Below, in pieces: positions 27,762-55,233 of a stretch of DNA of 64,000 bases (positions within the stretch are counted from its first letter, which is position 1; each line of letters opens with the position of its first letter). The notes beneath the pieces were generated by a model, which worked only from the letters and a program-made list of their open reading frames with translations, was not told the origin of the DNA and did not search any database. The position numbers and the translations under genes are program-made. Origin of the DNA: a virus. The stretch is taken from the IMG/VR virus record IMGVR_UViG_3300044623_000784, positions 54,085 to 118,084 of that record, one strand, 5' to 3'.

Positions 27762-27784
27762 ACTAATTCAGTAATAGAATTAGT
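27762..27784 (-). terminator. Terminator ending the dioxygenase cluster
   Basis: 8-bp perfect stem ACTAATTC / GAATTAGT with a 7-base loop, overlapping the stop of the last dioxygenase gene and followed on the minus strand by TTTTT. It separates the dioxygenase operon from nrdJ. Confidence 0.75.
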
Positions 27785-28406: not shown

Positions 28407-28417
28407 TTTATATCTCC

Positions 28418-29827: not shown

Positions 29828-30684
29828 TTTATTCTCTTTTCTTTATCGGCATTCATTTTATTAGGATGGGCATCTCTAAACTTTTGCATAATATCTGGCT
29901 GCATTTCTTTCCAAACATCTTTTCCAAACTCAGCCTCTTTTTCAAACCACTCATCATCACCAATCTCATACTTCATCCAGTACATTCTGGAGATATACTT
30001 CTTTTCTCCTTTGGCTGGCATGACTCCATGAAGATATACTTGACCTTCTTTTGTTAGTATGTCTGGATGACCAGAAGGAAATATCAAGTAGTCTCCTGCT
30101 TCTGGCTTATACATATAGGCTTCTCCATCAACAATAAAGTCAATCTCTCCACCAGTATAATCATCATTAAAGTATGTTAAAGCAGTAATTCCAAACTTAT
30201 ATCCTGGGCTGACAATTGGCTCTCTAATAAAATCAGAGTGATAGGCCATTGCTAATGGGTCTTCTATATCTGTTTTATATCTTGCTATTGCTGGGCCATT
30301 AGTTGTCCACTGATTAAAAGATTCTCCTTCACGATTTACTAAGATTTTTTCTTTATCAAAATCAACATTATTCTTAAGTATGTAATCTTGTGTGGCTAAA
30401 TGAAAGTTTTCAAAGACTTCTAGCACTGCAACTTTTTGTGCTTCTTCTTTTTCTGTATTTGTTTTTATCTTCCTAATTTCTTCAATACTCATAGTGTGTG
30501 GATAATCTTTAAACAATGGATTCATGTACTCTCCGAAGTGAGACCACTTTGTCCAAGGACTAAAAATAGCATCTTCGCTTTCGTCTTTTAATATCTCAAG
30601 TGTCTTAGTGATATCCTTAAAAAGATTCTTGTATACAAATATCTTTGGATAAAGTTCAATATGCTCTAGGAGTTTTTCTGTCAT
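29824..30684 (-). CDS. 2-oxoglutarate/Fe(II) dioxygenase 4
   Basis: 286 aa from the ATG at 30684, chosen because it overlaps the preceding stop as ATGA and AGGAG lies 11 nt upstream; an earlier start would overlap the previous gene by 52 nt. Iron ligands His149-x-Asp151 (AYHSDF) and His219 (YLHGVMP), with basic residues 228-229 for 2-oxoglutarate; strand motifs LTYFNDDYTGGEIDF and KPEAGDYLIFPSG. It is the longest of the group, with a helical segment at about 65-115 not seen in the others. Confidence 0.86.
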   Translation of the reverse strand: MTEKLLEHIELYPKIFVYKNLFKDITKTLEILKDESEDAIFSPWTKWSHFGEYMNPLFKDYPHTMSIEEIRKIKTNTEKEEAQKVAVLEVFENFHLATQDYILKNNVDFDKEKILVNREGESFNQWTTNGPAIARYKTDIEDPLAMAYHSDFIREPIVSPGYKFGITALTYFNDDYTGGEIDFIVDGEAYMYKPEAGDYLIFPSGHPDILTKEGQVYLHGVMPAKGEKKYISRMYWMKYEIGDDEWFEKEAEFGKDVWKEMQPDIMQKFRDAHPNKMNADKEKRIK

Positions 30685-31355
30685 GGTTTTCTGTCTCCTG
30701 TGTGCTCTGTTATCTCCCAGAAGAATGGACATGTGTATCTAATACCACTCTTAATCTCTGTTACTCCGTGGACATAATTCATATCCCCTGGGAAAAAATA
30801 CGCTGCTCCCTTTTTAGGTTTAAACTGTACACCCTGTAATGGGAAGTATAACTCTCCACCTTCATAGTCCTCATTTAAATAAAATAGGCTTGAAAGATCA
30901 TAGTTTGGAAAATCATTTGGAAGTCCAGCATCTGGCCCTTCGTGCAGTTCCTTGTCTGCGTGAGGGTTCTGAAACTGGCCTGGAAGCCATCTGACGATAG
31001 TTGTCCCAGTAGGGGTAACCTTTACCTTATAGAACTCTTCAACGATTGGCTTAAGCCTTTGAAACAGGCCTGCGATTACTGGAGCGATTGTTGGATCATT
31101 TTTATCTAAAGTTGGGCTAGTGGCTACTCGATCTTTCCAGTACTCAGAGTCATATACAACTGTTCCGTTTTCGTTAACGTGGCTTTGAGTTACATCCCAG
31201 ATTGTCAAAGACTTTGCAGCCTTCTCTAAAAACTCTATTTCTTCTTGAGTCATAAAATTTTCTAACTCAACAATCATCTCTTTACCATTACCAAACCAGC
31301 CAGATGGCGTTAGTGACGGTTTTCTAATTACAACAGAAGCATCCATTTTGTCCAT
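30681..31355 (-). CDS. 2-oxoglutarate/Fe(II) dioxygenase 5
   Basis: 224 aa. Iron ligands His132-x-Asp134 (NPHADK) and His196 (YVHGVTEI); Arg206 in SGIRYTCP; strand motifs LFYLNEDYEGGELYFP and KPKKGAAYFFPGD. A -10 TATAAT (31367-31362) ends 6 nt before the ATG with no Shine-Dalgarno, so this gene probably begins a leaderless transcript carrying dioxygenases 5 to 1. Confidence 0.88.
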   Translation of the reverse strand: MDKMDASVVIRKPSLTPSGWFGNGKEMIVELENFMTQEEIEFLEKAAKSLTIWDVTQSHVNENGTVVYDSEYWKDRVATSPTLDKNDPTIAPVIAGLFQRLKPIVEEFYKVKVTPTGTTIVRWLPGQFQNPHADKELHEGPDAGLPNDFPNYDLSSLFYLNEDYEGGELYFPLQGVQFKPKKGAAYFFPGDMNYVHGVTEIKSGIRYTCPFFWEITEHTGDRKP

Positions 31356-31361
31356 AATTGA

Positions 31362-31370
31362 ATTATATCA
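31362..31370 (-). promoter_or_regulatory. Promoter for leaderless dioxygenase operon
   Basis: TGATATAAT on the minus strand with the ATG of dioxygenase 5 six bases on. A short inverted repeat (TAGGG / CCCTA, about 31371-31385) just upstream may end transcription of the preceding gene. Confidence 0.5.
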
Positions 31371-31382
31371 TAGGGTTTTTCC

Positions 31383-31838
31383 CTACAATGTCCTCTCTAT
31401 CTCTAGTTGTTTTAAGAATCTTTCTGTGTTGAATCTCCAATTATCTTTTGCAAAAGAAGTAACAATCTTAATACAGACATCCTCATAGTCTTTCTTGTCT
31501 AACTTATCCTTCAAAGAATGCAATGCTTCGACTGTATCAATATAGTTTTGCCTTACAAATGATGGATCTCCTGCGTGGTTTCTTTTTAAAACTTTTGTAT
31601 TGATTTTCCCAGATGGCTCATACATAGAAACTGTGAGGTAGTCTTTTGCAAAACCAGCATCTTGATACATTTCATAACCCTCTAAGGCCTGCTCTAGATT
31701 ATCAAAGGATATAATAGATCTTACAGGAGACTCTCCATCTCTTGAAACAGTTATCATGTAATGACCAACCTTTCCTTCTTTAGAACTTTTGATGTAGTCA
31801 TTAACTATATCAGAGTGTGTTGGATTTAATTCATTCAT
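31383..31838 (-). CDS. Unknown protein with a domain shared with a small early protein
   Basis: 151 aa, unrecognised. Residues about 25-90 (HYMITVSRDGESPVRSI to YEPSGKINTKVLKRNH) resemble the whole 72-aa protein at 59926-60144, sharing YLITC/YMITV, a central aromatic stretch, then TV-MY/LY-P-S/T-GK-TKV and R. The C-terminal 60 residues are helical and charged. ATGA overlap with the preceding gene puts it in the dioxygenase operon. Function unknown. Confidence 0.75.
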   Translation of the reverse strand: MNELNPTHSDIVNDYIKSSKEGKVGHYMITVSRDGESPVRSIISFDNLEQALEGYEMYQDAGFAKDYLTVSMYEPSGKINTKVLKRNHAGDPSFVRQNYIDTVEALHSLKDKLDKKDYEDVCIKIVTSFAKDNWRFNTERFLKQLEIERTL

Positions 31839-32551
31839 GATCTGCCCTGAGTTGTTTGATCTTCTACAATAAGTTTTAAAGTCTTTACTTCATGAGACCC
31901 TAGAGACTCTTGCTTTTCGTTAACAGCATTTCTATACCAGTCAGTCCATTCTCCAGTAGAGTTTAGAACTTGGGCTGCTTCACCATATGAGATGTTTGCT
32001 TCTACCCTTTTTCTGTCCTCATCTTTATAGTCAACCATTTTTATAACTGTGTTATTTAGTTGTGTCAAAGATATTGGAATAATTGTTGCAACTGGAGTTC
32101 CTGCTTTAATGACTATTCTTTTATTTGCTGTCTTTGCCTTAAGTGCTAAAGGGAAAGGGTTGTCATAGAAAGATGTGCTAATTAGTGAAGACATTGTCTC
32201 AAACTCATCACTAAAATAGTTTACTGGATTTATAGCAAACATGCTAACGTCAGTGTCTGTTCTAAATATCAATCCAGTGTCCATACTTATTGATGATTGT
32301 CCTCTACCAGAATACGCTCTTTCTGGACTAAATATTTTAACACGATCAGGAGTTTGATCGTTTATTCCGTCCCACTCAAACTCTATGTCTTCTTTGCAGG
32401 AAAGGCTATATCCAACTACGTTTGCTTGCGTTACTGGAAAGCATCTGTAGGCATGATTTTCTGAAGTAGCGTCCATCCAGTCTCTTTTAATAGACATAGG
32501 ATTAATTTCAAATATGCAACCTGGAGCCTTTTCTACTAAGATGTTATACAT
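31835..32551 (-). CDS. Unknown beta protein, partner of dioxygenase 6 (DUF6065-like?)
   Basis: 238 aa. It shares an architecture with the 259-aa protein at 33218-33997: an N-terminal CFP or CPA segment followed by GYSL/GYVL and IEF/LEF, a central P-N-F stretch, and IKAGTP/IPAGTP with a nearby P. I believe these resemble the DUF6065 family but cannot verify that. It directly follows a dioxygenase gene (TAATG overlap), in the same arrangement as its paralogue. Confidence 0.75.
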   Translation of the reverse strand: MYNILVEKAPGCIFEINPMSIKRDWMDATSENHAYRCFPVTQANVVGYSLSCKEDIEFEWDGINDQTPDRVKIFSPERAYSGRGQSSISMDTGLIFRTDTDVSMFAINPVNYFSDEFETMSSLISTSFYDNPFPLALKAKTANKRIVIKAGTPVATIIPISLTQLNNTVIKMVDYKDEDRKRVEANISYGEAAQVLNSTGEWTDWYRNAVNEKQESLGSHEVKTLKLIVEDQTTQGRS

Positions 32552-33207
32552 TAGTCTGTATCCGCAACATACATTTCTGGAGTGTGGAACTTTTTATTGT
32601 AGTCAAGCATAGTAACAATAGAGTATTTTGTTCCTGAATGTACTGGCATTGCACGATGAGGATACATGAATGTTGAAGGGAATATAAATAGATCTCCAGC
32701 CTCTGGCTTTACAGTCAAACCTTGTAATCTAAAGTTTAGTTCTCCACCATCGTAATCATCATTTACATAAGCAACAAGAGACACTGTACAGTTGTATGAG
32801 AAGCCGTGATCGTGGTGCTCTTGGAAGTGCTGGCCTGGTCCATACTTAATAAAGTTAAACGCTTCCCAGTACTTTAGTTCATGAATGTTGTGGATCTTGC
32901 AATAGTCTTCAACTGCTGGTGCCTGTGCGTCGTATACATCTTGCCACAGTTCCTGAAGTTTTAAACTTGTGGGGCTTTTATCATACTCTATATCTGTTTT
33001 CTTAAACTTAAAATCATTACAATCTCTATAATCTGGCATTAACTGCTTGTAGCCCACATACGCAGGTAGCCAAGCATATCCTGTGGTATCTCCTACAGGC
33101 TTAAGATTAGACTCTAGTCTATTAATAACATCAATTTCTTTTTTGATTACACCCTTGTAGCAAAAGATTCCATTGCCAAGGTCTTGCTTATCTGTCCATG
33201 TTTGCAT
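32551..33207 (-). CDS. 2-oxoglutarate/Fe(II) dioxygenase 6
   Basis: 218 aa. Iron ligands His131-x-Asp133 (EHHDHG) and His184 (YPHRAMPV); Lys194 (SGTKYSIV) replaces Arg; strand motifs VAYVNDDYDGGELNF and KPEAGDLFIFPS. It is a close paralogue of dioxygenase 7 (both have FNF-I/V-KY, SYNCTVS/AYNCTVS, SGTKY). It is followed at once by a DUF6065-like gene, forming the second copy of a duplicated two-gene cassette. Confidence 0.88.
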   Translation of the reverse strand: MQTWTDKQDLGNGIFCYKGVIKKEIDVINRLESNLKPVGDTTGYAWLPAYVGYKQLMPDYRDCNDFKFKKTDIEYDKSPTSLKLQELWQDVYDAQAPAVEDYCKIHNIHELKYWEAFNFIKYGPGQHFQEHHDHGFSYNCTVSLVAYVNDDYDGGELNFRLQGLTVKPEAGDLFIFPSTFMYPHRAMPVHSGTKYSIVTMLDYNKKFHTPEMYVADTD

Positions 33208-33217
33208 TATGTATTCC

Positions 33218-33997
33218 TTATCTATATTCTCTTCTTGACCAAACTTTGTTCTTATATACCCCGCCGTCTGGCTGTCTATAAGTTTTCATATTAGTAACCA
33301 TTCTATCATAAATTGTAACCTGATCCAATATTTCTATTTCATGATCCCAGTTTTCTCTTTTAAAAGGAAGAAACTGCATGTATGGCGTTCCTGCTGGTAT
33401 CAAGCCTTCCCAACCTTCGGCAACGAAAAATGGAAAAGTTCCTGGTATAGAAACTTTATCACTATCAATAATTCCAGAAGTATTTAGGAATGGCAAATCA
33501 AATCTATTCATAGGAGTCATAAACAAAGCACTATAGCCTTCTGGAAGAGAGACTTCCCAGTCTGGGTACCATGCAAAATGGTGTTGGTAAAACCCCTTTG
33601 GATGTTCAAACTGTGGCATTGGCGGTCTTTTTGTAACAAAGTCTTTATATTTTGGATCACTAATTTTGACATCAATTGTGCCCTGAGCATTTTTAAAAAA
33701 CTCTAAGTCACATGGAGTTTTTAAAACATATCCAGTTATAAAAGCATCAAGTATCGCTGGACAGGCTTTCCAGGTAGGAATTCTTCCATAATCATCATCG
33801 GTTCCTTCTTTAGGAAAAGGACAAGTTCCTTTGGGTGCTTTATAGTATTCTCCATTTGGCATTTTTGCAAATCTGTCAGCATCTTTATACCATTCTGGAA
33901 TTTCATTTTGAGTTGAAGTTGGTACAGATTTGCTGTCTTTGTTTAGCCATGCTCTGAATGATCTAAAGGTTGCTATATTGTATTTTTCATCACTCAT
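33218..33997 (-). CDS. Unknown beta protein, partner of dioxygenase 7 (DUF6065-like?)
   Basis: 259 aa, acidic/aromatic, with EIPEWYKDADRF near the start and PAGTPYMQFLPFKRENWDH near 210. It is homologous in layout to the 238-aa protein two genes downstream. Its start overlaps the stop of dioxygenase 7 (TAATG). Genes of this kind beside 2OG dioxygenases may act on the same substrate, but no catalytic residues are recognisable. Confidence 0.72.
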   Translation of the reverse strand: MSDEKYNIATFRSFRAWLNKDSKSVPTSTQNEIPEWYKDADRFAKMPNGEYYKAPKGTCPFPKEGTDDDYGRIPTWKACPAILDAFITGYVLKTPCDLEFFKNAQGTIDVKISDPKYKDFVTKRPPMPQFEHPKGFYQHHFAWYPDWEVSLPEGYSALFMTPMNRFDLPFLNTSGIIDSDKVSIPGTFPFFVAEGWEGLIPAGTPYMQFLPFKRENWDHEIEILDQVTIYDRMVTNMKTYRQPDGGVYKNKVWSRREYR

Positions 33998-34707
33998 TAG
34001 TGACTCAGTTCATTAATATCTGTCATAATGACTACACAATATTTTGTGCCTGACTTCATTGGAAGTGACGCATGCTCATAAATATAGTTTGAAGGAAATA
34101 CGGCAATATCTCCTACTCTTGGCTTATATACCAAATTATCTAATCTTGGAAACTTTAAGTCTCCGCCTTCGTAGTCATCATTAATATAGATTACAGCAGA
34201 GACAGTGCAGTTATATGCTGGTCCATGGTCAGCATGAATATTAAAATGAGTTCCTTCTCCTTCATACTTAACAAAGTTGAATGCTTCATAATATACAACA
34301 TTGATTCCCCAATATTGTGCATAATCATCTATACACATTTTTAACTTTTGATATATTTCTTCATGAAGATCAATTAGTTCTGCATTATGCTCATCTTTTG
34401 GCCCTAGATTTTCTTGCTTATATTTAAAATCTACACAATCTCTTGCTTTTTTAATTGGTGTTGTTGAGTTTGTTACTTGGGCTTCTGACCATTTGTATTT
34501 ACCTCCATGAGATAAGTTGGATTCAAGAACTCCTATGTATCTGTTTGCGTCTTCTAAAGAAAACGTGTCATGATATACATGTAAGCCCAAACCGAGGTTT
34601 TCAACACTAACGGTCTGATTCATTTGTCTTGTTGGAATTCTATTTGATGCTGTCTCTGATCTATCTTTTGTAAACCAGTGGTTTGAGTTTTCATCATATG
34701 CGCTCAT
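33997..34707 (-). CDS. 2-oxoglutarate/Fe(II) dioxygenase 7
   Basis: 236 aa. Iron ligands His158-x-Asp160 (NIHADH) and His212 (YEHASLP); Lys222 (SGTKYCVV); strand motifs VIYINDDYEGGDLKFP and KPRVGDIAVFPS. Closest paralogue is dioxygenase 6. It is the first gene of the dioxygenase cluster, with a promoter (TATGTTATAAT near 34733-34743) and AAAGGTAG ahead of the ATG. Confidence 0.88.
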   Translation of the reverse strand: MSAYDENSNHWFTKDRSETASNRIPTRQMNQTVSVENLGLGLHVYHDTFSLEDANRYIGVLESNLSHGGKYKWSEAQVTNSTTPIKKARDCVDFKYKQENLGPKDEHNAELIDLHEEIYQKLKMCIDDYAQYWGINVVYYEAFNFVKYEGEGTHFNIHADHGPAYNCTVSAVIYINDDYEGGDLKFPRLDNLVYKPRVGDIAVFPSNYIYEHASLPMKSGTKYCVVIMTDINELSH

Positions 34708-35288: not shown

Positions 35289-36662
35289 TTAGTAGAAGCA
35301 GTTTCCACAGCATGGTGCTGTTGATGGGCAGTTCCACCATGGTCTATAACATGCTGGTCCGCAACCGCCACCGCCACCTGTGAAGTGTGGGAAGAATGGG
35401 AAGAACGGTGGGAAGAACGGGAAGAATGGTGGGAAGAATGGGAAGAACGGGAAGAACGGTGGGAAGAACGGGAAGAACGGTGGGAAGAATGGGAAGAATG
35501 GGAAGAACGGTGGGAAGAACGGGAAGAATGGTGGGAAGAATGGGAAGAACGGGAAGAACGGTGGGAAGAACGGGAAGAACGGTGGGAAGAATGGGAAGAA
35601 TGGTGGGAAGAACGGTGGGAAGAATGGGAAGAATGGTGGGAAGAATGGGAAGAATGGAGGGAAGAATGGGAAGAACGGTGGGAAGAACGGTGGGAAGAAT
35701 GGGAAGAAAGGTGGGAAGAATGGGAAGAAAGGTGGGAAGAATGGGAAAAATGGCGGGAAGAATGGAGGGAAAAATGGCGGGAAGAATGGAAAGAATGGGA
35801 AGAATGGAGCAATAGTAGTTACGCTAGTAGATTCAGCAGATGTTCCAGATGTTCCGTTAGCGTTTATTGCACGAACAGTATAGGTCTGTGCAGTATTTGC
35901 TTCTTGGGTAACTTCTACAGATGTTGCTCCTGTTGAATTGGTCTTACCATCTGATGCTGCCCAAACATAAGAAGTAATTGCACTTCCTCCATTTGATGGG
36001 GCTGTCCAAGAAACTGTATCCTTGTCTACTCCTGCTGTTGCTGTTGGGGCAGATGGAGTTGCTGGAACTGTTGTTGCTGTTATGGCGTTTGTTGTTGTTG
36101 CAGTAGATGTTCCGTTGGCATTTGTAGCAGTTACGCTAAATGTATAAGTAGTTCCACCTGTAAGAGATTGTACTGTTAGTGGTGATGCTCCAGATACTGA
36201 AGAAGCATTGTATGAAGATACTGTTTTTCCTCCGTTTACAGAAGATGCTGTAATTGTTGCTGCGCCATTTCCAAAAGCCCGTCCTGTTCCAACATTTGCT
36301 GCTGAAGCAGTAGGTGCTTGTGGTACAGTTGTTGCTAATACTCCAGCAGAAGCAGCAGAGGATGCTGAAGTTCCTGCAGCGTTAGTCGCTGTTACTGTAA
36401 ATGTTGGTGTTGCTGATGAGGAAATACCAGTTACAGTTAAAGGAGAAGATGCTCCAGTTGCTGTTTGTCCTGTGCTTGCTGTTACTGTAAAGGATGTTGC
36501 ATTAGGGGAAAGGGCTGGTAAAGAAAAAGATACAGATACTGCAGCATCATTAAATGCTCTACCTGTTCCAAGGTCTGTTCCAACAACATTGATTGGTGCT
36601 AATGGCTCCAAAAAGTCATTTGACGCTTGGGACTTCTTACCTATTCTCTTACCTGATGCCAT
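35289..36662 (-). CDS. FN3-like protein with long Phe-Pro repeat and Cys-rich tail
   Basis: 457 aa in three parts: about three fibronectin-III/Ig-like beta domains (residues 15-280; TYTFSVTATNANGTST, TYTVRAINANGTSG); roughly 150 residues of PFFPFFPPFF units (283-430); a Gly/Cys-rich end (GGGGGCGPACYRPWWNC, CCGNCFY) with six cysteines. I know no phage protein with such a repeat. Phe-Pro arrays could form a stiff polyproline-like rod or an adhesive hydrophobic fibre, and the prolines are candidate targets for the neighbouring prolyl-hydroxylase-like enzymes. There is an alternative open frame on the same strand (Ser/His-rich) that I reject because the FN3 frame is clearly coding. Confidence 0.8.
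   Translation of the reverse strand: MASGKRIGKKSQASNDFLEPLAPINVVGTDLGTGRAFNDAAVSVSFSLPALSPNATSFTVTASTGQTATGASSPLTVTGISSSATPTFTVTATNAAGTSASSAASAGVLATTVPQAPTASAANVGTGRAFGNGAATITASSVNGGKTVSSYNASSVSGASPLTVQSLTGGTTYTFSVTATNANGTSTATTTNAITATTVPATPSAPTATAGVDKDTVSWTAPSNGGSAITSYVWAASDGKTNSTGATSVEVTQEANTAQTYTVRAINANGTSGTSAESTSVTTIAPFFPFFPFFPPFFPPFFPPFFPFFPPFFPFFPPFFPFFPPFFPPFFPFFPPFFPFFPPFFPFFPPFFPPFFPFFPPFFPFFPPFFPFFPFFPPFFPFFPPFFPFFPFFPPFFPFFPPFFPFFPFFPPFFPFFPPFFPFFPHFTGGGGGCGPACYRPWWNCPSTAPCCGNCFY
35385..35815. repeat. 430-bp polypurine/polypyrimidine tandem repeat
   Basis: The plus strand is almost pure purine with GGGAAGAAT, GGGAAGAAC and GGT units in 9- and 12-base steps; the minus strand codes PFFP units. 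It is open in several frames on both strands because of its composition. GGG every 9-12 bases could also allow G-quadruplex or triplex DNA, and the repeat should be prone to length change by slippage. Confidence 0.85.
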
Positions 36663-42255: not shown

Positions 42256-42822
42256 TCACGACAAACCGTCCTTGAGTGCACCCCAAGTACCGTTTCCTTT
42301 TGTTTGAACTATAATCATTCCACCAAGTGATTTAATTGCTTGAACTGCAACCACTCCAACATATCTTGCTGGGCCAGTTGATGGACGACCACTTACCAAG
42401 GCTCCGTTTTGATCTACATAAATTTTTGTTCCAGAAGTACCTAAATCTGTTGTGTTCATTTGTATAATTCCAGAAACAACAACAACTCCGTTTGTAGAAG
42501 GCAGTGTGTCCGATTGCATTAATCCAAGAATTGGGACATCTGGGTTATGAGTAGGACTTGATGGGTTGTATAATTCTACAGTTGGAATTGCTTTTCCTTC
42601 ATAAGTCGTTACCCCCGAAATAAATACTGGCTTTCCTGTTAAAATAGAAATAGATGAACTTACATTTCTTACGGGAGATGAAACACTTGTCATTCCTAAA
42701 GATGGCAGTATATTATTTAAAGCATCAACCAGTACTTTAAAGTCTCCGTGTACATTAACAGGATCTGACGCAATAGGGTACGTCATAGTAGGATAATTAG
42801 ATGCTGAGGATGTCTGTGGCAT
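42256..42822 (-). CDS. Virion fibre-type beta protein
   Basis: 188 aa. Residues about 50-188 follow the phage fibre domain pattern (VRNVSSSISILTGKPVFIS, IPTVELYNP, VVVVSGIIQMNTTDLG, KIYVDQNGALVSGRPS). -10 TATAAT (42835-42830) lies 7 nt before the ATG and there is no ribosome site, so probably leaderless. Divergent from the lysozyme gene. Confidence 0.7.
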   Translation of the reverse strand: MPQTSSASNYPTMTYPIASDPVNVHGDFKVLVDALNNILPSLGMTSVSSPVRNVSSSISILTGKPVFISGVTTYEGKAIPTVELYNPSSPTHNPDVPILGLMQSDTLPSTNGVVVVSGIIQMNTTDLGTSGTKIYVDQNGALVSGRPSTGPARYVGVVAVQAIKSLGGMIIVQTKGNGTWGALKDGLS

Positions 42823-42879: not shown

Positions 42880-42904
42880 GGTAGTAACACCTACCAAGGT
42901 GTTA
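42880..42904 (+). promoter_or_regulatory. Two overlapping hairpins in the lysozyme leader
   Basis: Hairpin A pairs GGTAG with CTACC (42880-42895); hairpin B pairs TAACACCT with AGGTGTTA (42885-42904, perfect 8 bp, ACCA loop). They share bases and cannot form together. B could also be a double-stranded operator at the transcription start. The ribosome site AAGGAGG follows 10 bases later. Confidence 0.55.
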
Positions 42905-42925
42905 TTGTTTTCTAAGGAGGAAACT

Positions 42926-43489
42926 ATGATTAAATTTATCGAAAGAAACAAAGAGATCATTAGCACACTCAGTATCGTAGCATTAGTAACTGTTTTGTCG
43001 AACGGAGCCAATGCTGATTCGGGTCTTGATACTAAAAACAACTTGAGCATAGAACAGGCTCAGACATCGGAAACCGCCTCGAAAGAGGTTTTTTTGGTTT
43101 CTAAAGCAAAAAAACTAGAGAGTTTTGAGAACAAGGTTTCTCTGACTGATTTAGAACTAAAGGAACTGCTTTCGCTAGTAGGATTCAAGGGTAAAGACCT
43201 TGTAGTTGCTTGGGCAGTTGCTAAAAAGGAGTCTAATGGGCGACCACTGGCTTTTAATGGCAACCACAAGACTGGTGATTCATCTTATGGAATGTTCCAA
43301 ATCAATATGATTGATACCCTTGGTCCTGATCGTAGGACTAAGTTTGATCTTGACTCTAATGCCGAACTCTTCAACCCCGTCAAGAATGCAGAGATTGCAT
43401 ACTACATGACAAATGGTGGAGAAGATTGGTCTTCTTGGAAGGGCATTACTCCAAAGACCAGAATGTGGATGAATAAATTTCCTAAATAA
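42926..43489 (+). CDS. Exported lysozyme-like transglycosylase (candidate endolysin)
   Basis: 187 aa from the ATG at 42926 (AAGGAGG 5 nt upstream). A Sec signal peptide runs to about residue 30 (IISTLSIVALVTVLSNGANA, cut before DS). The catalytic part has Glu102 in VAKKESNGRP and YGMFQIN near 124, the pattern of lysozyme-like SLT transglycosylases that cleave peptidoglycan. It is the only plus-strand gene in the first 53 kb and has its own promoter and terminator. It may serve host lysis, or may be a captured host wall enzyme. A signal peptide means export would not need a holin. Confidence 0.85.
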   Translation: MIKFIERNKEIISTLSIVALVTVLSNGANADSGLDTKNNLSIEQAQTSETASKEVFLVSKAKKLESFENKVSLTDLELKELLSLVGFKGKDLVVAWAVAKKESNGRPLAFNGNHKTGDSSYGMFQINMIDTLGPDRRTKFDLDSNAELFNPVKNAEIAYYMTNGGEDWSSWKGITPKTRMWMNKFPK

Positions 43490-43536: not shown

Positions 43537-44337
43537 TTATCTAAAATTAACTTCTGACTTAACCCCATCTGAGAAAGTGTAAGAAGGGAACCAGCCAAGA
43601 AGATCTCTGTTATCTATTTCTGATAGAACTGTTAGGTCTGGCAAATTTAAAACGGTATAAGTAATAGTAACACCATTAGCCTTATACTCGTTTACCAGAT
43701 CAATCATAGTAAACTGGTTTCCAGTAAAAATATCTGTAAGCAAAAAGTCGTTATCCTTAAGATACTCAATAGATAGTACATTGGCTTTTGCTATATCTAA
43801 AATATGGACATAGTCTCTTGTTGAAGAAACGCTATTAATGTTTATATTTGGATTTTTACTAATTATTGAAAATATGTTTCCACCTTGCTCATCCTTTATT
43901 TTGTCAGATTTTCCAACAATGTTAAAATATCTTAAAATAACAAGTTTTTTACATAAAATTTTTAATATTTTTTCTTCTAAAAGTTTTGATTTGGCATATG
44001 GGTTGTATGGATTATATATTGCTGCAGAGGATGCAAATATAACTGGTATATTTAAAACCTTAGAAACTAAAGCAACAGACAAGGTAGATCCTATATTGTT
44101 TAAATAATAAAGAATAGGGTTTTTTACAGACTCTGTAATTGATTTTTTAGCAGACAGGTGAATTATTGCTTTTGGTTTTTTTAAAGACAAACAAAATAGT
44201 TTAAATATGTTTCTTGTGTCATTGTTATTTTTTTTATCAAACTCTATAACGTTATATCCATTTTTTATTAAAAGTTCTTTTGTTGCTGATCCAACATAAC
44301 CAAATGATCCAGTCAAAACTACGCTAGCAGTTTTCAA
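43537..44337 (-). CDS. NAD-dependent sugar epimerase/dehydratase
   Basis: 266 aa, extended short-chain dehydrogenase fold. Nucleotide-binding TGSFGYVGS (9-17), FASSAAIY with the catalytic Ser region near 104, and the catalytic Tyr114-x3-Lys118 (YAKSK) are present, with RDYVHILDIAKA near 188. The family includes UDP-glucose and UDP-GlcNAc 4-epimerases; at 266 aa it is shorter than the usual 310-340, so the specificity is open. TTG start with GGTGA 6 nt upstream, overlapping the glycosyltransferase stop. It is Lys/Asn-rich and looks more AT-rich than its neighbours, a hint of separate acquisition. Probably supplies a sugar nucleotide to the adjacent transferase. Confidence 0.85.
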   Translation of the reverse strand: MKTASVVLTGSFGYVGSATKELLIKNGYNVIEFDKKNNNDTRNIFKLFCLSLKKPKAIIHLSAKKSITESVKNPILYYLNNIGSTLSVALVSKVLNIPVIFASSAAIYNPYNPYAKSKLLEEKILKILCKKLVILRYFNIVGKSDKIKDEQGGNIFSIISKNPNININSVSSTRDYVHILDIAKANVLSIEYLKDNDFLLTDIFTGNQFTMIDLVNEYKANGVTITYTVLNLPDLTVLSEIDNRDLLGWFPSYTFSDGVKSEVNFR

Positions 44338-45241
44338 CTATTTCACCATTTATAAAATCAAGCCCAGCAAATGTTCCATATTCTAGAAGAGTTCTTTCAT
44401 TTCCAAGCAACATATCTCCAACTGTTCCTTCTGTTAAAGTTTTATAGATTAATTGTTTAGATACTAAATCTAAACGGTTAAATTCATCAGGGTAGTCTGT
44501 CCAAAGAATCTTTCTCTTATTTATTTCACCTGCAATGTTGTGATTATAGTAAAGATGATACATATACTGCTCATCAGGAACTAATATGTCATACCCATGC
44601 GTGTAGGCCCTTGCTGCCAACCATATTTCTTCTCCGTAAAATGCAATGTCTGTGTTGAAAGGTAAAAATCCTTTAACAGTAAATATTGATCCTCCAGATA
44701 CTGACTTTACAAATCTATTTCCATCGAGGATCGGCATTGCTGTTTGTTGTGGAATTCTTGTTAGCCTAAACTGATCTGGCTTTTCATGAAATGAGATATT
44801 AGATAAGTGGCCAGGTGGTAGAAAATCTTTTTCTACAAACTTAGCGGTTGCAGATGGATACCAGTAATTTGCTGGGTACATTGTAAGAAGTGGTTTGTGA
44901 ATTCCCTGAATTTGATAATTTAAAACCGAGTTTATGGCAACTTCGTCCCAACCACTAATAAATCTAGAATGTGAGTCGCATTGAAGATAATAATCTTCGC
45001 CATCATAAAATTGATGAGCAAGGGCTCTTCCGATTCCCAAACCAATATTTTCTGGAGCCTTGCTTTCAGCATGCTTAACATTAGGCAAATCAGGAACATT
45101 AATCTCTGATTCATCTACATAAACTGTGTGAACACCAAAATTAATTGTGTGGTTCCCAGATGACTGCTTTATTGCATCTAGAATTGTAGGGGTTACCTCT
45201 AAATCTCTATATGCTGCTATCTGAACAAATATGCTGGCCAT
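44324..45241 (-). CDS. GlcNAc transferase, GT60-like (hydroxyproline GlcNAc transferase family)
   Basis: 305 aa. The opening IFVQIAAYRDLEVTPTILDA and the DSHSRFISGWDE motif (89-100, with Asp89/His91 as likely metal site) are hallmarks I associate with the GT60 GlcNAc family (PF11397), whose characterised member adds GlcNAc to a hydroxyproline on Skp1 in Dictyostelium. PFNTDIAFYGEEIWLAARAYTHGYD near 213 is the conserved acceptor-side region. It is coupled to the radical SAM gene before it (TAATG) and overlaps the epimerase after it. The substrate here is unknown; virion proteins hydroxylated by the dioxygenases are the natural guess. Confidence 0.75.
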   Translation of the reverse strand: MASIFVQIAAYRDLEVTPTILDAIKQSSGNHTINFGVHTVYVDESEINVPDLPNVKHAESKAPENIGLGIGRALAHQFYDGEDYYLQCDSHSRFISGWDEVAINSVLNYQIQGIHKPLLTMYPANYWYPSATAKFVEKDFLPPGHLSNISFHEKPDQFRLTRIPQQTAMPILDGNRFVKSVSGGSIFTVKGFLPFNTDIAFYGEEIWLAARAYTHGYDILVPDEQYMYHLYYNHNIAGEINKRKILWTDYPDEFNRLDLVSKQLIYKTLTEGTVGDMLLGNERTLLEYGTFAGLDFINGEIVENC

Positions 45242-46245
45242 TAGTCACCCCAAATCGCATGAACGCATGTTCTGCAGAAGTTTTCAAATGACTTAACTGT
45301 CATTAACTTATGCTCAATGCTCATCCATATATCGCTAATTGGCTTATCGTTTATATTTCCAAATACCGTTTCAAAATCGTAGTCATTACAACAAATAAAG
45401 GTGTCTCCATTAGCAGCAACGTGTAGCCATCCATTTGGTCTGCCACCTACTTCTCTTCCGTTACCACAACCAACTACTCTTTCCTTGCCTTTTTTCTCTT
45501 TGCTCTCAATAGCAGCCTTATTTGTAATAATTTGATGAGTATCTAAGTGACCATTTCTATCTACAAGGTATGGCATTTCGTATACTTGTAGTCCAGGAAA
45601 CTTTTCTCTCCAACCATTTGTCATTCTTGCAAGTAATCCAGTTTCAAGATCTATGTCCATTTCTGGAGCATTTTTTAACTGTTGAATCCAACCACCATAC
45701 TCTACAAGAGAATTTTTATTAATACCGTTTACTTGTATTGACATGGCTTTGCTTGTTACCATATCTGGCAACTGCTCTACCGCATATGTCACCTGCTCTA
45801 TTAATTTATCAAACATTTTTACGGGTTTTCCTGTTGCTTTTGCCCATTCTTCTGGATCTGATGCAGGAATATTAAAACAAATACCATGAACAACATCTTG
45901 ATATTCTCTAATAAGGTCAGTTCTTGCTTTAGTTAGTGGCGTTCCATTAGTTAACACAATGGTTCTTATCTTGTTTTTTCTTAAAACCTCTAGCATTTCT
46001 GGAAAGTACTTATAAAGAAGAACTTCGTTGTAGTGTGCCGTATATATAAAATCAAAATTATCAGAAACAAACGTGCCTTTACCTGCAACAAGTTGATTAA
46101 TAATGCTTTCAAAGGTTTCAATTGGCATATTTGTTCTTTGTGCCAAAGGATTTTCTGCATATCTTACTGGACAAAACCAACAGCCTACATTACAAAGACC
46201 ATTGGGGTCAATTTGTGCCATTGATATTTTGTATTGATATTTCAT
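45241..46245 (-). CDS. Radical SAM/SPASM enzyme
   Basis: 334 aa. CNVGCWFC (Cys18, Cys22, Cys25) binds the [4Fe-4S] cluster used to split S-adenosylmethionine. The C-terminal SPASM region has Cys residues in VVGCGNGRE, FICCNDYDF and FCRTCVHAIWGD for auxiliary clusters. Such enzymes modify peptides (maturases) or sugars. Its cassette contains a small Cys protein before it and a glycosyltransferase and epimerase after it, which suggests modification of a protein or glycan. Start is coupled to the 76-aa gene (TAATATG). Confidence 0.88.
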   Translation of the reverse strand: MKYQYKISMAQIDPNGLCNVGCWFCPVRYAENPLAQRTNMPIETFESIINQLVAGKGTFVSDNFDFIYTAHYNEVLLYKYFPEMLEVLRKNKIRTIVLTNGTPLTKARTDLIREYQDVVHGICFNIPASDPEEWAKATGKPVKMFDKLIEQVTYAVEQLPDMVTSKAMSIQVNGINKNSLVEYGGWIQQLKNAPEMDIDLETGLLARMTNGWREKFPGLQVYEMPYLVDRNGHLDTHQIITNKAAIESKEKKGKERVVGCGNGREVGGRPNGWLHVAANGDTFICCNDYDFETVFGNINDKPISDIWMSIEHKLMTVKSFENFCRTCVHAIWGD

Positions 46246-46517: not shown

Positions 46518-46934
46518 TCACTCAGTGTATTGTGGCTGTGTTGGAGCCCAAGGAATTAAATCTGCCATGTCTCTATTCGTTATAGTAAATTTTTCTCCGT
46601 CAAAAGTGGCATTTGGAGATTGAACATATCTTCCATATGGGTAGTCTCTTAAATCAAGAACTAATGGATTGCTTAATAAGACGCTTCCAAAATATTCAGA
46701 AGTTTGTAATTCATTGATCATTGATCCATCTTTAATAAATCTAACTGTTATCCCGTCATGATTTGGATAACTTTGAGATACATCAATTACTGTATTGCTA
46801 GACATAAACATTTCTTTATATTCGTTCCATGTTGGTATATCATATATGCATTGTCCATCAATTACCCAAACTAACGGTACTCCATTTATACCGTCGTTTC
46901 CTCTAACAAACTGTATATCTATATCTGTTAACAA
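46518..46934 (-). CDS. Unknown virion-region protein
   Basis: 138 aa from a TTG at 46934, chosen because GGAGG stands 6 nt upstream and the TTG overlaps the stop of the Thr-rich gene (AATTGTTAA). The sequence (QFVRGNDGINGVPLVWVIDG, NATFDGEKFTITN) is beta-rich and has the FDGEKF-type end seen in small phage surface proteins. No known domain. Confidence 0.65.
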   Translation of the reverse strand: MLTDIDIQFVRGNDGINGVPLVWVIDGQCIYDIPTWNEYKEMFMSSNTVIDVSQSYPNHDGITVRFIKDGSMINELQTSEYFGSVLLSNPLVLDLRDYPYGRYVQSPNATFDGEKFTITNRDMADLIPWAPTQPQYTE

Positions 46935-49678
46935 TTGTATCCTCCTCCGAAACACCTATCAAATGGTGGGTTTGAACAACTTGCTCCGCTTCCACAGCCA
47001 GTACTACATCCAGTAGAAGCACAACATCCAATAGATACGTCAAACGATGTACAGGTTACCCCAGATGTTGGTGCTGCAGTTGTGGTTGCTGCAGTTGTGG
47101 CTGCAGTTGTGGTTGCTGCAGTTGTGGCTGCGGTTGTAGTTGCTGCGGTCGTAGTAGTTGTTGGTGCTGCAGTTGTAGTTGCTGCAGTCGTTGTTGTGGT
47201 TGGTGCTGGGGTCGTAGTTGCTGCAGTCGTTGTTGTGGTTGGTGCTGGGGTCGTAGTTGCTGCAGTCGTTGTTGTGGTTGGTGCTGGGGTCGTAGTTGCT
47301 GCAGTCGTAGTTGTTGCAGGAGCAAAATATGGGAAGAATGGAGGTGCTGCAGTTGTAGTTGTACAATTTGGCAATGCTGGTGCAGACCCTTGTTGATAAG
47401 TAATATTGCTTACGCCATCATAATTTCCACTTATCCAATTAGCAAGTGATGATTGAGTTGTAAAGGAAGATCCTCCGTCTGATATTGCAACTCCGTTTGT
47501 ACAGAATGAAGCAAACCATCCAGTTGCTGCTGTCGTAGTTGTTGTAGTTGTTGGTGCTGGGGTCGTAGTAGTTGTTGGTGCTGGCGAAGTTGATGCTGCA
47601 GTCGTAGTTGCTGCTGTCGTTGTTGTTGTAGTTGTTGGTGCTGCAGTCGTAGTAGTTGTTGCAGTAGTTACTCCACAACTTGCTGGTGAAACAGAAGGTG
47701 TATTTGATGTTCCTGCTGCACAGTTCCATCCTGAACCAATTTCTCCCATAGATGTCATTTCATTAAATATCGCACTACACGTTGTTCCTGCTTCAAACAG
47801 TGGTCCGACAACTGTTCCAGGACTATAACCTGCGCTTACGCTGCCACAATATGTGTACCAGACTCCTGATGTTACTGGTGCTACGGTAGTTGTAGTTGTT
47901 GTTGCTGCGGTCGTGGTTGTAGTTGTTGCTGGTGTTGAAGATGTAGTTCCTGGTGCGACTGTTGTTGTAGTAGTTGTAGTAGGATTACATCCAGTTGGTG
48001 TTGTAGAAACCCCACCCTGTGTAGTATTTCCTATTCCTGGCTCATCTGCATCACATGCAGCGTTTAGACCTGTTACTGCAGCACTACTGTTAGCGTAAGT
48101 TCCACTGACTCCTGCTCCATTAGTACAGCAAGCATAATAAGTTGTTCCTGTTGGTGCTGGAGTAGTTGTAGTGGTTGTAGTTGTTCCAGCACATCCAGTT
48201 GGTAGTGCAGGAGCAGATCCTTGCTGGTAAGTAACATTACTTACATTTTCATAATTACCATTTATCCATGCTTCAAGTGCTCCAACGGATGTATACTGAG
48301 ATCCTCCGTCTGTCATTGCAATTCCATTAGAACAGAATGAGGCAAAATATCCACTTGTTGGTGCAGCAGTTGTTGTTGTAGTCGTGGTTGTACTTGTAGT
48401 GACACCTGAAGGAACAGTGTAACTTATTGTTGAAGAAGCAGATGCTCCTTGTTGATTGTCAGAAGCATAAACAGTTAATGTTAAAGTATAAGTTGTTCCC
48501 TTGTTTGCCATTCCAAGGTATGCGTCAGTATCTGAGTTAGCATTACTTGTATAAGTGCTTCCATTAGCAGTTGAAGGAGACGCAGTTATTTGATAAGATG
48601 ATGCATTTGAATAGTTAAATATTGTCCAGATAGCCTGTTGTGTTTGTGTATCGGTACATCCTCCTACGTCAGGGTTTTCACACTGAGCAGAGAAAGAACT
48701 AATTGTTGGTGTAATTACTGGCGCTACAGTCGTAGTTGTAGTTGTTGTTGCTGCAGTCGTGGTTGTAGTTGTTGCTGGTGTTGAAGATGTAGTTCCTGGT
48801 GCGACTGTTGTTGTAGTAGTTGTAGTGGCTGGTGCTGGTGTTGAAGATGTAGTTCCTGGCGCTGCTGTAGTAGTTGTAGTGGCTGGCGCTGCTGTAGTAG
48901 TTGTAGTGGTTGTCGGTGCTGCGGTTGTAGTAGTTGCTACAGCAACACCTTCATATATATCTCCATACAAAACCCAACTATCTGTTGCAACTTTTATTAA
49001 AGTTCCCTTGCTATATCTTCCATCTAAGAATAATTGTGAATTTTTACTATTAATAGTCACACCAGATGCTGGAACAAAAGTTGTTTTTTCTGAACCAAAT
49101 TCAATAAAATGATATTGATATCCAACTGGAATTGCAACTGAAGAATTTAGCGGGATAGTTAAATTCATTGGTGAAGATGTTGACAAAAGAATAGTCTTGC
49201 TAACATCTGCCAACTCTAATGTAAAACTAGAATTTTTTGTAATAACTGTTGAGGTATTTGAAATGCTTGGCTCAAGATCAAATTGGAATGTTCCTGAGTT
49301 CCAGTCAATTCCAACTCCTGCAAGCGTTGACTGATTTACGGTAGAGTTATCTATTCCAGAATCAACATATGCTTTTGTTGCAAGAAGGGCTGTGTTTGCT
49401 ATTCCGTGAACATTTATTGTGGCTGCATTGTGTGCTGCGATGGCTGCATCTCTATTTACTATTTCTGCTGCGTCGGCATCTACAAGGTTTTGAAGGTGTT
49501 TTGCTATTGAAGGGGATACAAGGTTTGATGGTGTTGTATTTGCGCCATCATAAGTATAGGATCCATAGTGATATAGTCTGAGCGCTGCCTGAATATCGGC
49601 TGCATCTCCAAGACCTGGGATTTTGGCATTAAATAGTCCAGTACCATTAACGGTATTGTCAATATTTTCTGCTGCCAC
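46928..49678 (-). CDS. Mucin-like Thr-rich virion protein with Cys modules
   Basis: 916 aa from a GTG at 49678 (GGGTGAT-type site; TGGTATAAT promoter near 49705). Residues 1-250 are fibre-like, with one HGI repeat (NVHGIANTALLATKAYVDS) and the beta domain found at the C-terminus of the 618-aa fibre. The rest alternates long Thr/Ala/Pro linkers with four small Cys-containing modules; the first and fourth are near copies (GYFASFCSNGIAMTDGGS and GWFASFCTNGVAISDGGS, both with VTYQQGSAPALP or ITYQQGSAPALP). Near the end is PPFFPYFAP, echoing the Phe-Pro protein, then a tail with about 10 Cys. Thr/Pro linkers like these are O-glycosylated in other systems. Confidence 0.85.
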   Translation of the reverse strand: MAAENIDNTVNGTGLFNAKIPGLGDAADIQAALRLYHYGSYTYDGANTTPSNLVSPSIAKHLQNLVDADAAEIVNRDAAIAAHNAATINVHGIANTALLATKAYVDSGIDNSTVNQSTLAGVGIDWNSGTFQFDLEPSISNTSTVITKNSSFTLELADVSKTILLSTSSPMNLTIPLNSSVAIPVGYQYHFIEFGSEKTTFVPASGVTINSKNSQLFLDGRYSKGTLIKVATDSWVLYGDIYEGVAVATTTTAAPTTTTTTTAAPATTTTTAAPGTTSSTPAPATTTTTTTVAPGTTSSTPATTTTTTAATTTTTTTVAPVITPTISSFSAQCENPDVGGCTDTQTQQAIWTIFNYSNASSYQITASPSTANGSTYTSNANSDTDAYLGMANKGTTYTLTLTVYASDNQQGASASSTISYTVPSGVTTSTTTTTTTTAAPTSGYFASFCSNGIAMTDGGSQYTSVGALEAWINGNYENVSNVTYQQGSAPALPTGCAGTTTTTTTTPAPTGTTYYACCTNGAGVSGTYANSSAAVTGLNAACDADEPGIGNTTQGGVSTTPTGCNPTTTTTTTVAPGTTSSTPATTTTTTAATTTTTTVAPVTSGVWYTYCGSVSAGYSPGTVVGPLFEAGTTCSAIFNEMTSMGEIGSGWNCAAGTSNTPSVSPASCGVTTATTTTTAAPTTTTTTTAATTTAASTSPAPTTTTTPAPTTTTTTTAATGWFASFCTNGVAISDGGSSFTTQSSLANWISGNYDGVSNITYQQGSAPALPNCTTTTAAPPFFPYFAPATTTTAATTTPAPTTTTTAATTTPAPTTTTTAATTTPAPTTTTTAATTTAAPTTTTTAATTTAATTAATTTAATTAATTTAAPTSGVTCTSFDVSIGCCASTGCSTGCGSGASCSNPPFDRCFGGGYNC

Positions 49679-49697: not shown

Positions 49698-50297
49698 TTA
49701 TACCACCGTAATAAATAGGTGGACAAGTTTAGGCCCAGTCATATCTGACCAGACTCCATCTACATATTCTACTCCCTTTATTTCAAGTGGTAGTGCTAAG
49801 AATCCCTGTGTTGTTATTAAGTCTTTTACTATAAGGTTTGTTGCTAGTGGTCCAGATGTTTCTGACGAAGATATTGAGTACTGAATGCTGAATCTGGAAG
49901 AACTCACAGTCCCATCTGATAAAGCATAGATATCTGTAACATTGATTGGTGGAATTGTTATCTTTCCATTTACTGGACTAAAAGGACCTTTTATATCTGA
50001 GTAAAAATCTGTTTTTAAACTAACAAGAGGAGTCCACTGAGGAGTACCTGATGGAGTGGAGATATATTGAAAAACTGTTCTGTATGTATCTGAACTTGGA
50101 CTATAATCAACAGCAAGGTCTAATGCTTGAACATCTTGAGCAATTAAATTTGCTACACTAGCGTTTCTTGGATCTCCCTGAACGCCAACAATAATACTTC
50201 CACGGTCACCTGGTGGTCCAAAATCTAAATCAAGTTTTATTTCTGCTGGCCCACCAAAGACCGCCATATCATCATTTGATAATAGTATGTCTGCCAT
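49698..50297 (-). CDS. Virion beta protein with short collagen-like motif
   Basis: 199 aa. Contains FGPPGDRGSIIVGVQGDPR near 26-44, a short Gly-Pro stretch like the collagen-type gene two genes away. The C-terminus (VDGVWSDMTGPKLVHLFITVV) is beta-rich. Tight spacing within the decoration operon (2 nt after the previous stop). Function unknown; likely structural. Confidence 0.65.
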   Translation of the reverse strand: MADILLSNDDMAVFGGPAEIKLDLDFGPPGDRGSIIVGVQGDPRNASVANLIAQDVQALDLAVDYSPSSDTYRTVFQYISTPSGTPQWTPLVSLKTDFYSDIKGPFSPVNGKITIPPINVTDIYALSDGTVSSSRFSIQYSISSSETSGPLATNLIVKDLITTQGFLALPLEIKGVEYVDGVWSDMTGPKLVHLFITVV

Positions 50298-51062: not shown

Positions 51063-51794
51063 TTATACCACGCTGACGTAGACAGAATTGAGGATTACGG
51101 ATGAGTCAAAGTCTGTTCTGATTTGAGGCACTGCTCCATTGCCCCACATGGCTTGATCTTCAATAAATATTTGCTGTGTTGCTGATAAGTTATAAACGTT
51201 TTGATATTTAAAAGACCCAACCAACTGGACAAACTCTTTGTCTTTGCTTGCAAAATATGTCCTTAGCCAAACTTCTGTATTAGCGGTATATGTCGTTAGT
51301 TCAAAGTTATATGTTACAAATACTTGGGATCCTTCTTTGATACCATGAAAGTTTAGGGCTCGCTGGTGGCTGTTCCAAAGACTGGTACATCCTTTTGGAA
51401 GGTATGTCTCATTCTGAGTTTTTTCTTTTGTGTCTAATGACAATGTCACCCACCCATCATCGCCTTGAGAGATTCCAAGTTTTATTGGTTTGTCAATAGT
51501 GTTTTCATATGAGGCCCAACCAGCCTGTTGTCCTGAAGAAGATAAAGAACTTAACCCGTTTTGTCCAGTTGCTCCCTTTTCTCCCTTTTGCCCCTTTTGT
51601 CCTTCTGGACCTATAGGACCTGGCAATCCATCTTTACCATCTCTTCCTGCTGGTCCTTGAGGACCTTGTGGTCCAGGAACTGGTAGAAATGAAAGAGTAT
51701 TTTCTTGATATGTAGAGATTTGACTTTGCTCTACTTGAGCAGCATAAGAAGATTTTTTTGCACCAGGGAAGTCCATAGATTTAGAAGCAGCCAT
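51063..51794 (-). CDS. Collagen-like virion protein
   Basis: 243 aa. Residues 41-80 are thirteen unbroken Gly-X-Y triplets (GPQGPQGPAG, DGLPGPIGPEG, QKGQKGEKG); Pro58 and Lys67/70/73 occupy the Y position, where animal collagen is hydroxylated by 2OG enzymes. The N-terminus may anchor to the virion; the C-terminal 160 residues form a beta domain (LGISQGDDGWVTLSLDT, VFVTYNFELTTYTANTEVWLR), perhaps the trimerising head or receptor-binding tip. Leaderless by spacing (GATAAT 51806-51801). Confidence 0.88.
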   Translation of the reverse strand: MAASKSMDFPGAKKSSYAAQVEQSQISTYQENTLSFLPVPGPQGPQGPAGRDGKDGLPGPIGPEGQKGQKGEKGATGQNGLSSLSSSGQQAGWASYENTIDKPIKLGISQGDDGWVTLSLDTKEKTQNETYLPKGCTSLWNSHQRALNFHGIKEGSQVFVTYNFELTTYTANTEVWLRTYFASKDKEFVQLVGSFKYQNVYNLSATQQIFIEDQAMWGNGAVPQIRTDFDSSVILNSVYVSVV

Positions 51795-54460: not shown

Positions 54461-54653
54461 GTTTTATTACAAACCAATTTTAGAAAAGATTCAAGAAGCA
54501 TATCTGGCAAATGCCCAAAAAGAGTACGAGCCAGGGTTTGATGTCGAGTCAAATGTAAGACTTGTTATTGAAGCAGATACTGAGGAGTTGGCTGATCTAT
54601 CTCGTTATGGGTTTGTTGATATTCGTATGTGGGAATTAGCCAGTGAAGGTTAA
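54453..54653 (+). CDS. Small unknown protein
   Basis: 66 aa from a TTG (AGGTGG upstream) overlapping the previous stop by 8 nt. Sequence KFYYKPILEKIQEAYLANAQ then RLVIEADTEELADLSRYGF. No recognised family. Its stop overlaps the next gene's GTG start. Confidence 0.65.
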   Translation: MPKFYYKPILEKIQEAYLANAQKEYEPGFDVESNVRLVIEADTEELADLSRYGFVDIRMWELASEG

Positions 54654-55233
54654 CCTTCTATCCCCCGACATTTACGAGATTGAAGACTTTGTAAGTATCC
54701 AAGAGCAAGAAGAGGTTTTGAACTATTGCAAAACCTTAGATGAGGCTGAATGGTGGAAATCTTATAACGAAGAATACGAAAAAGGTTTCTTTTTTGGAAA
54801 GCAAAAAATAGGAGAACTTCCACCAGTCTTTTATCAAATTAGCGACAAAGTAAAAACCTTGTTTGACGATGTTTTATACTTTGATCACGTTTCGTTGCAA
54901 AGACACCCAAGTGGAAACTTTATGGAAGTACATAAAGACTATTGGAATAAAGAGATTGATTACTATATTCGTTATGGGATTGTTATATATTACAATGACG
55001 ATTATCTAGGTGGAGAGATACATTATCCATCCCTGGATTTTTCTCACAAACCAAAAGCCAGGTCTTTAGTTATGCATGGTGGAAATATACCACATGGAAC
55101 CACAGAAGTTACAAGTGATGGCTATAGGTATTTTTCTACTTCGTTTGTTAGAGGAACTGTCGACAAACCAGTTATCTTAAACCCAGAGTTATTTGGTGAT
55201 GTTGAGAAAACTGATGGATCTGCTTATCCTTAA
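54643..55233 (+). CDS. 2-oxoglutarate/Fe(II) dioxygenase 8
   Basis: 196 aa from a GTG. Iron ligands His97-x-Asp99 (EVHKDY) and His151 (IPHGTTEV); Arg162 in DGYRYFST; strand motif IVIYYNDDYLGGEIHYP. All catalytic residues are intact. Unlike the other seven it lies on the plus strand among early-type genes, so it may be made earlier and have a different target. It ends convergently (3-nt overlap) with the next minus-strand gene. Confidence 0.85.
   Translation: MKVNLLSPDIYEIEDFVSIQEQEEVLNYCKTLDEAEWWKSYNEEYEKGFFFGKQKIGELPPVFYQISDKVKTLFDDVLYFDHVSLQRHPSGNFMEVHKDYWNKEIDYYIRYGIVIYYNDDYLGGEIHYPSLDFSHKPKARSLVMHGGNIPHGTTEVTSDGYRYFSTSFVRGTVDKPVILNPELFGDVEKTDGSAYP

Follow-up and report, generated by a model that had tools for sequence, protein, structure and literature searches.

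Why should a phage fibre string its small domains on linkers that all repeat one amino acid pattern, and why should that pattern change in step with an enzyme gene just downstream? The question is raised by a stretch of 64,000 nucleotides (the window), positions 54,085 to 118,084 of the 118,084-base virus record IMGVR_UViG_3300044623_000784 in IMG/VR. On its minus strand a single open reading frame (ORF), covering exactly positions 46928–49678, encodes 916 amino acids from a GTG start, with the ribosome-site-like sequence AAAAGGGTGAT 5′ of the start and a beads-on-string layout; neither Pfam nor PHROG searches gave a match for it. On balance we favour the view that its product is a tailed-phage fibre with a conserved anchor, exchangeable beads, and linkers that serve as acceptor for the enzyme encoded just downstream. 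A mucin-like string that changes in step with an adjacent enzyme gene suggests that the phage sugar-coats its own fibre. The comparison behind this took in 69 distinct fibre genes, 66 of them complete, and 57 representatives once near-copies were removed; in the latter the region after the anchor was cut into low-complexity linkers and modules.

The linkers of the window's fibre amount to 304 amino acids (57% Thr, 21% Ala, 11% Pro and 3% Val). They thus form a long Thr/Pro-rich domain of the mucin type, as an earlier model reading of the letters alone (the sequence-only reading) had noticed. Linker 1 (48716–48949; all fibre coordinates are on the minus strand) is of Thr, Ala and Pro, and the last long linker (47063–47326) contains a 39-base tandem repeat. 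Throughout each fibre of the sample a single dialect is used, be it Thr runs, PTPT, TPVAP or VTP, and the same modules appear in several dialects. The similarity of linker 3-mers is 0.717 within genes as against 0.289 between them, and none of 1000 shuffles reached this. The DNA is far less uniform than the residues: repeated linker 5-mers share 0.566 of their codons compared with 0.483 in shuffles, so that synonymous codons are nearly random. Because the codons are so nearly scrambled, homogenisation at the level of DNA is by itself insufficient to account for the dialects. In close relatives the linkers differ by silent sites and by gain or loss of units while the residues are kept (the silent rate is overestimated where repeats are misaligned). 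The window's nearest relatives have 87–89% identity to it in the anchor and differ in dialect. Two other fibres, L076 and L084, have a common module series and 8-Cys knob, with TPVAP linkers in one and PTPT linkers in the other. A trans-acting dialect, which other proteins of the same phage would share, was considered and rejected, as no ORF in the 57 loci does so.

The genes of the enzyme region between the fibre and the conserved gene f188 (42256–42822, minus strand, the far border) were clustered without prior labels, and 17 families were tested in the 43 loci that span the whole region; the other 14 of the 57, without the far border, were left out. The dialect classes had been cut crudely and then recut, in both cases before the association with genes was examined. 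The PF11397 GlcNAc-transferase (N-acetylglucosaminyltransferase) family, Q3, is present in 8/8 Thr-run loci, 8/13 PTP, 4/14 TPVAP and 0/8 VTP (permutation p 0.0002). A cupin-like family, Q5, is nearly its mirror image, with 8/8 VTP, 3/14 TPVAP, 1/13 PTP and 0/8 Thr-run (p again 0.0002), and Q2, which has no Pfam hit, goes with TPVAP (13/14, compared with 7/13 PTP, 1/8 VTP and 0/8 Thr-run). These three were the only families of the 17 to reach the smallest possible permutation p. The association was first noticed post hoc and was then tested with fixed rules and models on held-out loci, of which 179 had the fibre, 135 of these the far border, and 11 remained when near-copies and loci already used were dropped. 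In the 11, Q5 was found in all three VTP loci and in none of the eight others, Q3 in both Thr-run loci, and Q2 in three of the four TPVAP loci.

On the N-terminal tree of the fibres, low-Val linkers go with the Q3 glycosyltransferase in independent pairs (9 pairs, mean 7.1 in the same direction and 0.0 in the opposite, median p 0.016), and so do VTP linkers with Q5 (7 pairs, 6.4 and 0.0, p 0.031). Two control families of the same region, Q0 (2OG oxygenases) and Q1 (epimerases), show no association (1.7 same and 1.5 opposite, and 2.4 each way, respectively), and 2OG oxygenases as modifiers of low-Val linkers were dropped accordingly. Linker Val is 0.018 with the glycosyltransferase and 0.194 without it (p 7e-8). 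Linker Thr content differs too, whereas the modules do not differ. The transferase tree itself sorts by dialect, 10 of the 11 Thr-run genes being in one starred group while their fibres are scattered on the fibre tree; over the same 25 rows there are 3 dialect changes on the former and 5 on the latter (the Q3 tree has long branches and calls for caution). For the test over all glycosyltransferases the split was made on rounded Val, giving 20 low and 34 high (21 and 33 unrounded), and the cut-off for closeness of the transferases, 100 bits, was chosen after the data had been seen.

The window's own transferase gene (44324–45241, minus strand), the candidate modifier of its Thr linkers, scores 110.4 bits against PF11397, for which the cut-off is 21 (Pfam E 1.7e-31). 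D89 and H91 are invariant across 9 aligned rows, and we take D-x-H to be the motif of this type of GlcNAc-transferase. Both TcOGNT-2 of Trypanosoma cruzi and Gnt2 of Dictyostelium are presumably PF11397 members. According to the accessible part of the source, mucin-type glycosylation in T. cruzi is started on Thr by a polypeptide alpha-GlcNAc-transferase, and the mucins are about 46–54% Thr and 2–3% Val (PMC3769586); a related enzyme of Dictyostelium is described as initiating on hydroxyproline of Skp1 (PMC8724618). As the acceptor in T. cruzi is Thr-rich and Val-poor, and the linkers of the window fit this, we propose that the downstream transferase glycosylates them. The O-glycosylation suggested in the sequence-only reading thereby gains indirect support from the company that Thr-run, Val-poor linkers keep with the PF11397 gene. 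Different from the protist case are the setting, a bacterial virus with no Golgi and a glycan proposed from covariation, and the genetics, with acceptor and enzyme genes adjacent and switching together.

In the mechanism that we propose, residues 1–241 would anchor the protein in the fibre assembly, ending in a spike-type domain that is presumably trimeric. From it a string of beads, putatively stapled by disulfides, would extend on stiff linkers, and the beads would be exchangeable modules, perhaps for binding. The single dialect of each fibre would be the acceptor sequence of the modifying enzyme encoded just downstream. In the window, the Thr runs would receive GlcNAc from the PF11397 enzyme, and the product would be a mucin-like, extended and protease-resistant rod.

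Several observations weigh against this proposal. On the fibre tree there is some clustering of dialects (for four classes, 24 changes over the 57 genes compared with 30.2 in shuffles). In 27 of the 57 genes, none of 19 codon shuffles gives an exact match between linkers as long as the longest one observed, so that DNA exchange also homogenises linkers. In the window this longest match is 71 bases, against at most 27 in shuffles, with one copy in linker 1 (48756–48826) and an identical one in the linker between modules B and C (47910–47980). In several other genes the longest match is below the shuffle mean, and here an assembly bias is not told apart from selection that disfavours exact repeats. 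The Val-rich fibres L020, L090, L100 and L102 also have a PF11397-family transferase, in each case of one divergent subgroup, and the Val-poor L042 and L048 have none, the gene present instead being glycosyltransferase-like (likened to GT11 by eye, with nothing found in Pfam). Q5, the cupin-like partner of VTP, is no glycosyltransferase, and GT61 is found in only 3 of the 8 fully covered VTP loci. Finally, TPVAP has a weaker partner: independent pairs with Q2 are 5.2 same and 1.1 opposite (p 0.22). Q2 had at first been taken for a 2OG enzyme from an HxD...H pattern, and profile comparison gave no link to that family.

Might linkers and enzyme gene merely be hitch-hiking, moved as a single block owing to their closeness and functionally unrelated? 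They are indeed neighbours, swaps of the whole string do occur (L054, L062), and the enzyme regions of the window and L060 are 85% identical over 4.2 kb. In three sister pairs, however, linkers and enzyme gene both differ while the DNA between them, which includes the fibre end, is homologous: from −91 to +960 at 88% for L084 and L076, from −91 to +285 at 86% for L054 and L062, and from −125 to +682 at 77% for the window and L030. The control families Q0 and Q1 sit in the same region without association. Moreover, the window and L060 agree in dialect and transferase and differ in the end knob and most beads. Joint exchange without a functional tie is thus unlikely. The enzymes might alternatively act elsewhere, on the host surface, the phage DNA or another virion protein, with dialect and enzyme both tracking the host. 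Such roles are the ones usually assigned to phage glycosyltransferases in the accessible text of two sources (PMC10202952, PMC12619734). Yet it is in the linkers, and not in the modules, that composition differs with the transferase, and the dialect is confined to the fibre among the ORFs of the 57 loci, so we regard this reading too as improbable. The remaining proposal, that the linkers are inert spacers arising from slippage and from exchange among themselves, their dialect merely recording the repeat that seeded them, can draw on the long exact tracts and on changes in length between near-identical records (the last long linker of L009 is shorter than the window's by one 13-amino acid unit), and is very unlikely given that residues are kept while codons are close to random and that the dialect predicts a neighbouring gene.

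Returning to the linkers as enzyme acceptors, a broader version may be put forward, tentatively and with a good deal less assurance, as a code of enzyme and acceptor: Thr runs with PF11397; VTP with the cupin-like protein and sometimes GT61; and TPVAP with Q2 and an O-FucT-like protein. Anchor, beads and enzymes would recombine separately and linkers be rewritten to match, the whole being a phage counterpart of mucins and of hydroxyproline-rich glycoproteins. The latter, in plants, carry AP, TP and VP motifs, and the TPVAP-type linkers of some of the fibres look alike; unlike the plant case, the oxygenase family Q0 is untied to low-Val linkers. Glycans on virion structural proteins of actinophages have precedent in mycobacteriophages, as cited in the accessible text of PMC12619734, where they are on C-termini of capsid and tail-tube proteins; here the putative acceptor is a fibre with long low-complexity linkers. 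Metaviromic islands resemble these loci in that a variable region contains genes for fibres and for collagen-like proteins, and the accessible part of their description mentions no tie of linker and enzyme (PMC10202952). The literature searched, which covered few subscription journals, gave no description of a linker dialect tied to a neighbouring modifying enzyme.

Modular fibres and virion glycosylation are already known. Glycosyltransferases abound in phages, and most of them have no known target. If the adjacent fibre is the target here, nature offers dozens of pairs in which an acceptor sequence stands beside its enzyme, and the specificity of these enzymes can be put to direct test. The same assumption would account for linker residues being kept while their codons drift, and would mean that a bacterial virus makes a mucin-like glycoprotein. 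Glycosylated rods could set the reach of the fibre, its resistance to proteases, and its recognition by hosts or grazers.

That the protein is a fibre is indicated by its locus. Over the 57 loci the gene order is fixed: us126, a collagen-like gene, us251, us199, the fibre, the variable enzyme region, f188, f138, f148 and two further fibres. Residues 1–241 are kept among relatives (53–100% identity in the first match list). Their first segment (residues 1–82, 49433–49678), a conserved attachment segment with KIPGLxDAADIQAALRLYHYG, is modelled by AlphaFold at low confidence, then as a long helix at residues 58–87. The mean predicted local distance difference test score (pLDDT) for the anchor is 80, and ten-residue means are 93–97 from residue 141 onward. 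A beta domain (residues 139–241, 48956–49264) is predicted to fold as the spike domains of the T4 gp9/gp10 type. Its predicted structure matches best the Pa223 capsid spike (Z 15.0, root-mean-square deviation 1.9, 97 residues aligned), followed by CBA120 TSP4 (Z 9.0), T4 gp9 (Z 8.2) and chain AC of 5iv5 (Z 8.1). Spike-type domains of this kind are trimeric in known relatives. In this fibre, unlike in those spikes, a bead-on-string tail follows. With the synteny of the tail-fibre locus, the spike and baseplate matches agree with the surface filament of the sequence-only reading, and we infer a location on the virion. Sequence matches were found in 168 phage records, mostly of Gordonia phages and with minor tail proteins among them; among the 40 of the 168 that were listed, the matches fall within residues ~109–241. 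A search of bacterial genome contigs with a profile of the N-terminus gave no homologue, and among isolate phage records the A1-B-C string of modules had no match at E 0.01.

The N-terminus had been taken as patched from a fibre of 618 amino acids. Residues 83–145 (49244–49432) do have 57% identity to a single stretch of it, residues 308–370, and residues 146–241 are similar, at low identity, to the C-terminal domain of the same protein; residues 1–76, by contrast, do not align. Conservation of residues 1–241 at a syntenic place in relatives marks the block as a trait of the family rather than something newly borrowed.

After linker 1 comes module D (residues 322–423, 48410–48715), which has 102 residues and 2 Cys and is also in L013. 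The four Cys modules that had been read in the string are there: A1 (443–496, 48191–48352), B (514–564, 47987–48139) and C (604–668, 47675–47869), the last two with 4 Cys each, and A2 (721–772, 47363–47518). A1 and A2, called nearly identical, align at 65% identity. A C-terminal knob (873–916, 46931–47062) has 8 Cys. Of the 384 modules with Cys in the 69 genes, 349 have an even number (homologues being counted many times), as do 47 of 54 loose module families, with 2 odd and 5 without Cys. In an alignment of 16 A modules (one row trimmed at its end by hand), Cys columns 30 and 49 are both present in 9 and both absent in 7. Even numbers and paired gain or loss point to the modules probably being disulfide-stapled beads. 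Domain shuffling is borne out, as 52 strict module families occur in at least two genes and 33 of these in at least two dialects, recurring modules being as much as 100% identical across 50 residues. The beads amount to a catalogue of small, probably disulfide-stapled modules that different phages have in common.

The model of A1 is beta-beta-alpha-beta with mean pLDDT 97.4. Against the PDB, Foldseek E values for module A were above 2 and the best Z was 4.0, with nothing convincing from VIA-align either (novelty of the fold is not implied). PBCV-1 P22 (8h2i) was rejected as kin: the profile E was 8e-26, but single repeats had a best i-Evalue of 0.75, and the match was put down to likeness of a short GNYxNVxN motif, P22 being repetitive. 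The match to integrin beta-2 (E 0.29) was taken likewise.

PPFFPYFAP (47318–47344) lies within a linker as had been noted, and elements of PPFFP type recur within linkers of several relatives, but between the Cys-rich end and the Phe-Pro protein, proposed as its kin, no similarity could be detected. The Phe-Pro protein (35289–36662, minus strand) has fn3/PKD-like domains, a long PFFP repeat run and a Cys-rich end, with relatives in 4 of the 57 loci. Plus-strand ORFs at 46935–47396, 47853–48098 and 48759–49112 are antisense readings of the linkers, with Val/Ala runs, and are unlikely genes.

PASTA domains, above the Pfam cut-off, are among the beads of L099 and L101, where they may bind peptidoglycan; TSP1-like and Hint-like parts are below it. 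A Hint-like self-processing domain ends the fibre in 8 of the 57 genes (L043, L074, L075, L079, L082, L089, L091 and L098; one module cluster, sub-threshold in Pfam, with the list completed by eye), in some preceded by TINTINT or FGAFGAF spacers. A second type of anchor, PASTA-like for the bead strings at L126 3734–5314, L145 4933–6597 and L147 4897–6624, carries the same beads and one-dialect pattern in L144, L145, L147 (PTPT with PFFP) and L126. L126 has a YSFTP dialect, a Hint-like end by eye, and an anchor with a weak PASTA-kinase match. A spike-type domain is encoded in L145 and L126 by an ORF of its own, which stops just ahead of the string ORF, as judged from coordinates. Of the 47 module-bearing loci checked, the remainder either carry the family anchor or have an ORF that runs off the contig.

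Around the fibre, all on the minus strand, are us199 (49698–50297, in 54/57 loci) and the collagen-like gene (51063–51794, 49/57) upstream. Downstream are a gene for 138 amino acids (46518–46934, TTG start, similar gene in 7/57 loci), whose GGAGG site sits within the last codons of the fibre; a radical SAM/SPASM protein (45241–46245, 9/57 loci, all with Val-poor linkers); and, past the transferase, an NAD-dependent sugar epimerase/dehydratase (43537–44337).

The virus is probably a phage of freshwater Actinobacteria. Its record contains a gene scoring above the Pfam cut-off for WhiB, which is used as an actinophage marker in the accessible part of PMC6802176. The record also encodes a PstS-like phosphate-binding protein (L105 15477–16679, minus strand, named by eye). 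Its relatives are only 29–35% identical, and the first three carry the titles Actinomycetota, Acidimicrobiia and Ilumatobacteraceae. Together these make an actinobacterial host likely, and the look of the relatives suggests a freshwater origin.

Just past the fibre locus, on the opposite strand, is a lysozyme-like SLT_3 protein (42899–43489). Genes resembling 2OG-Fe(II) oxygenases number eight in the window, at 27780–34707 (minus strand) and 54643–55233 (plus strand); seven of them pass the Pfam cut-off, and a further such gene is at position 11216 of the record.

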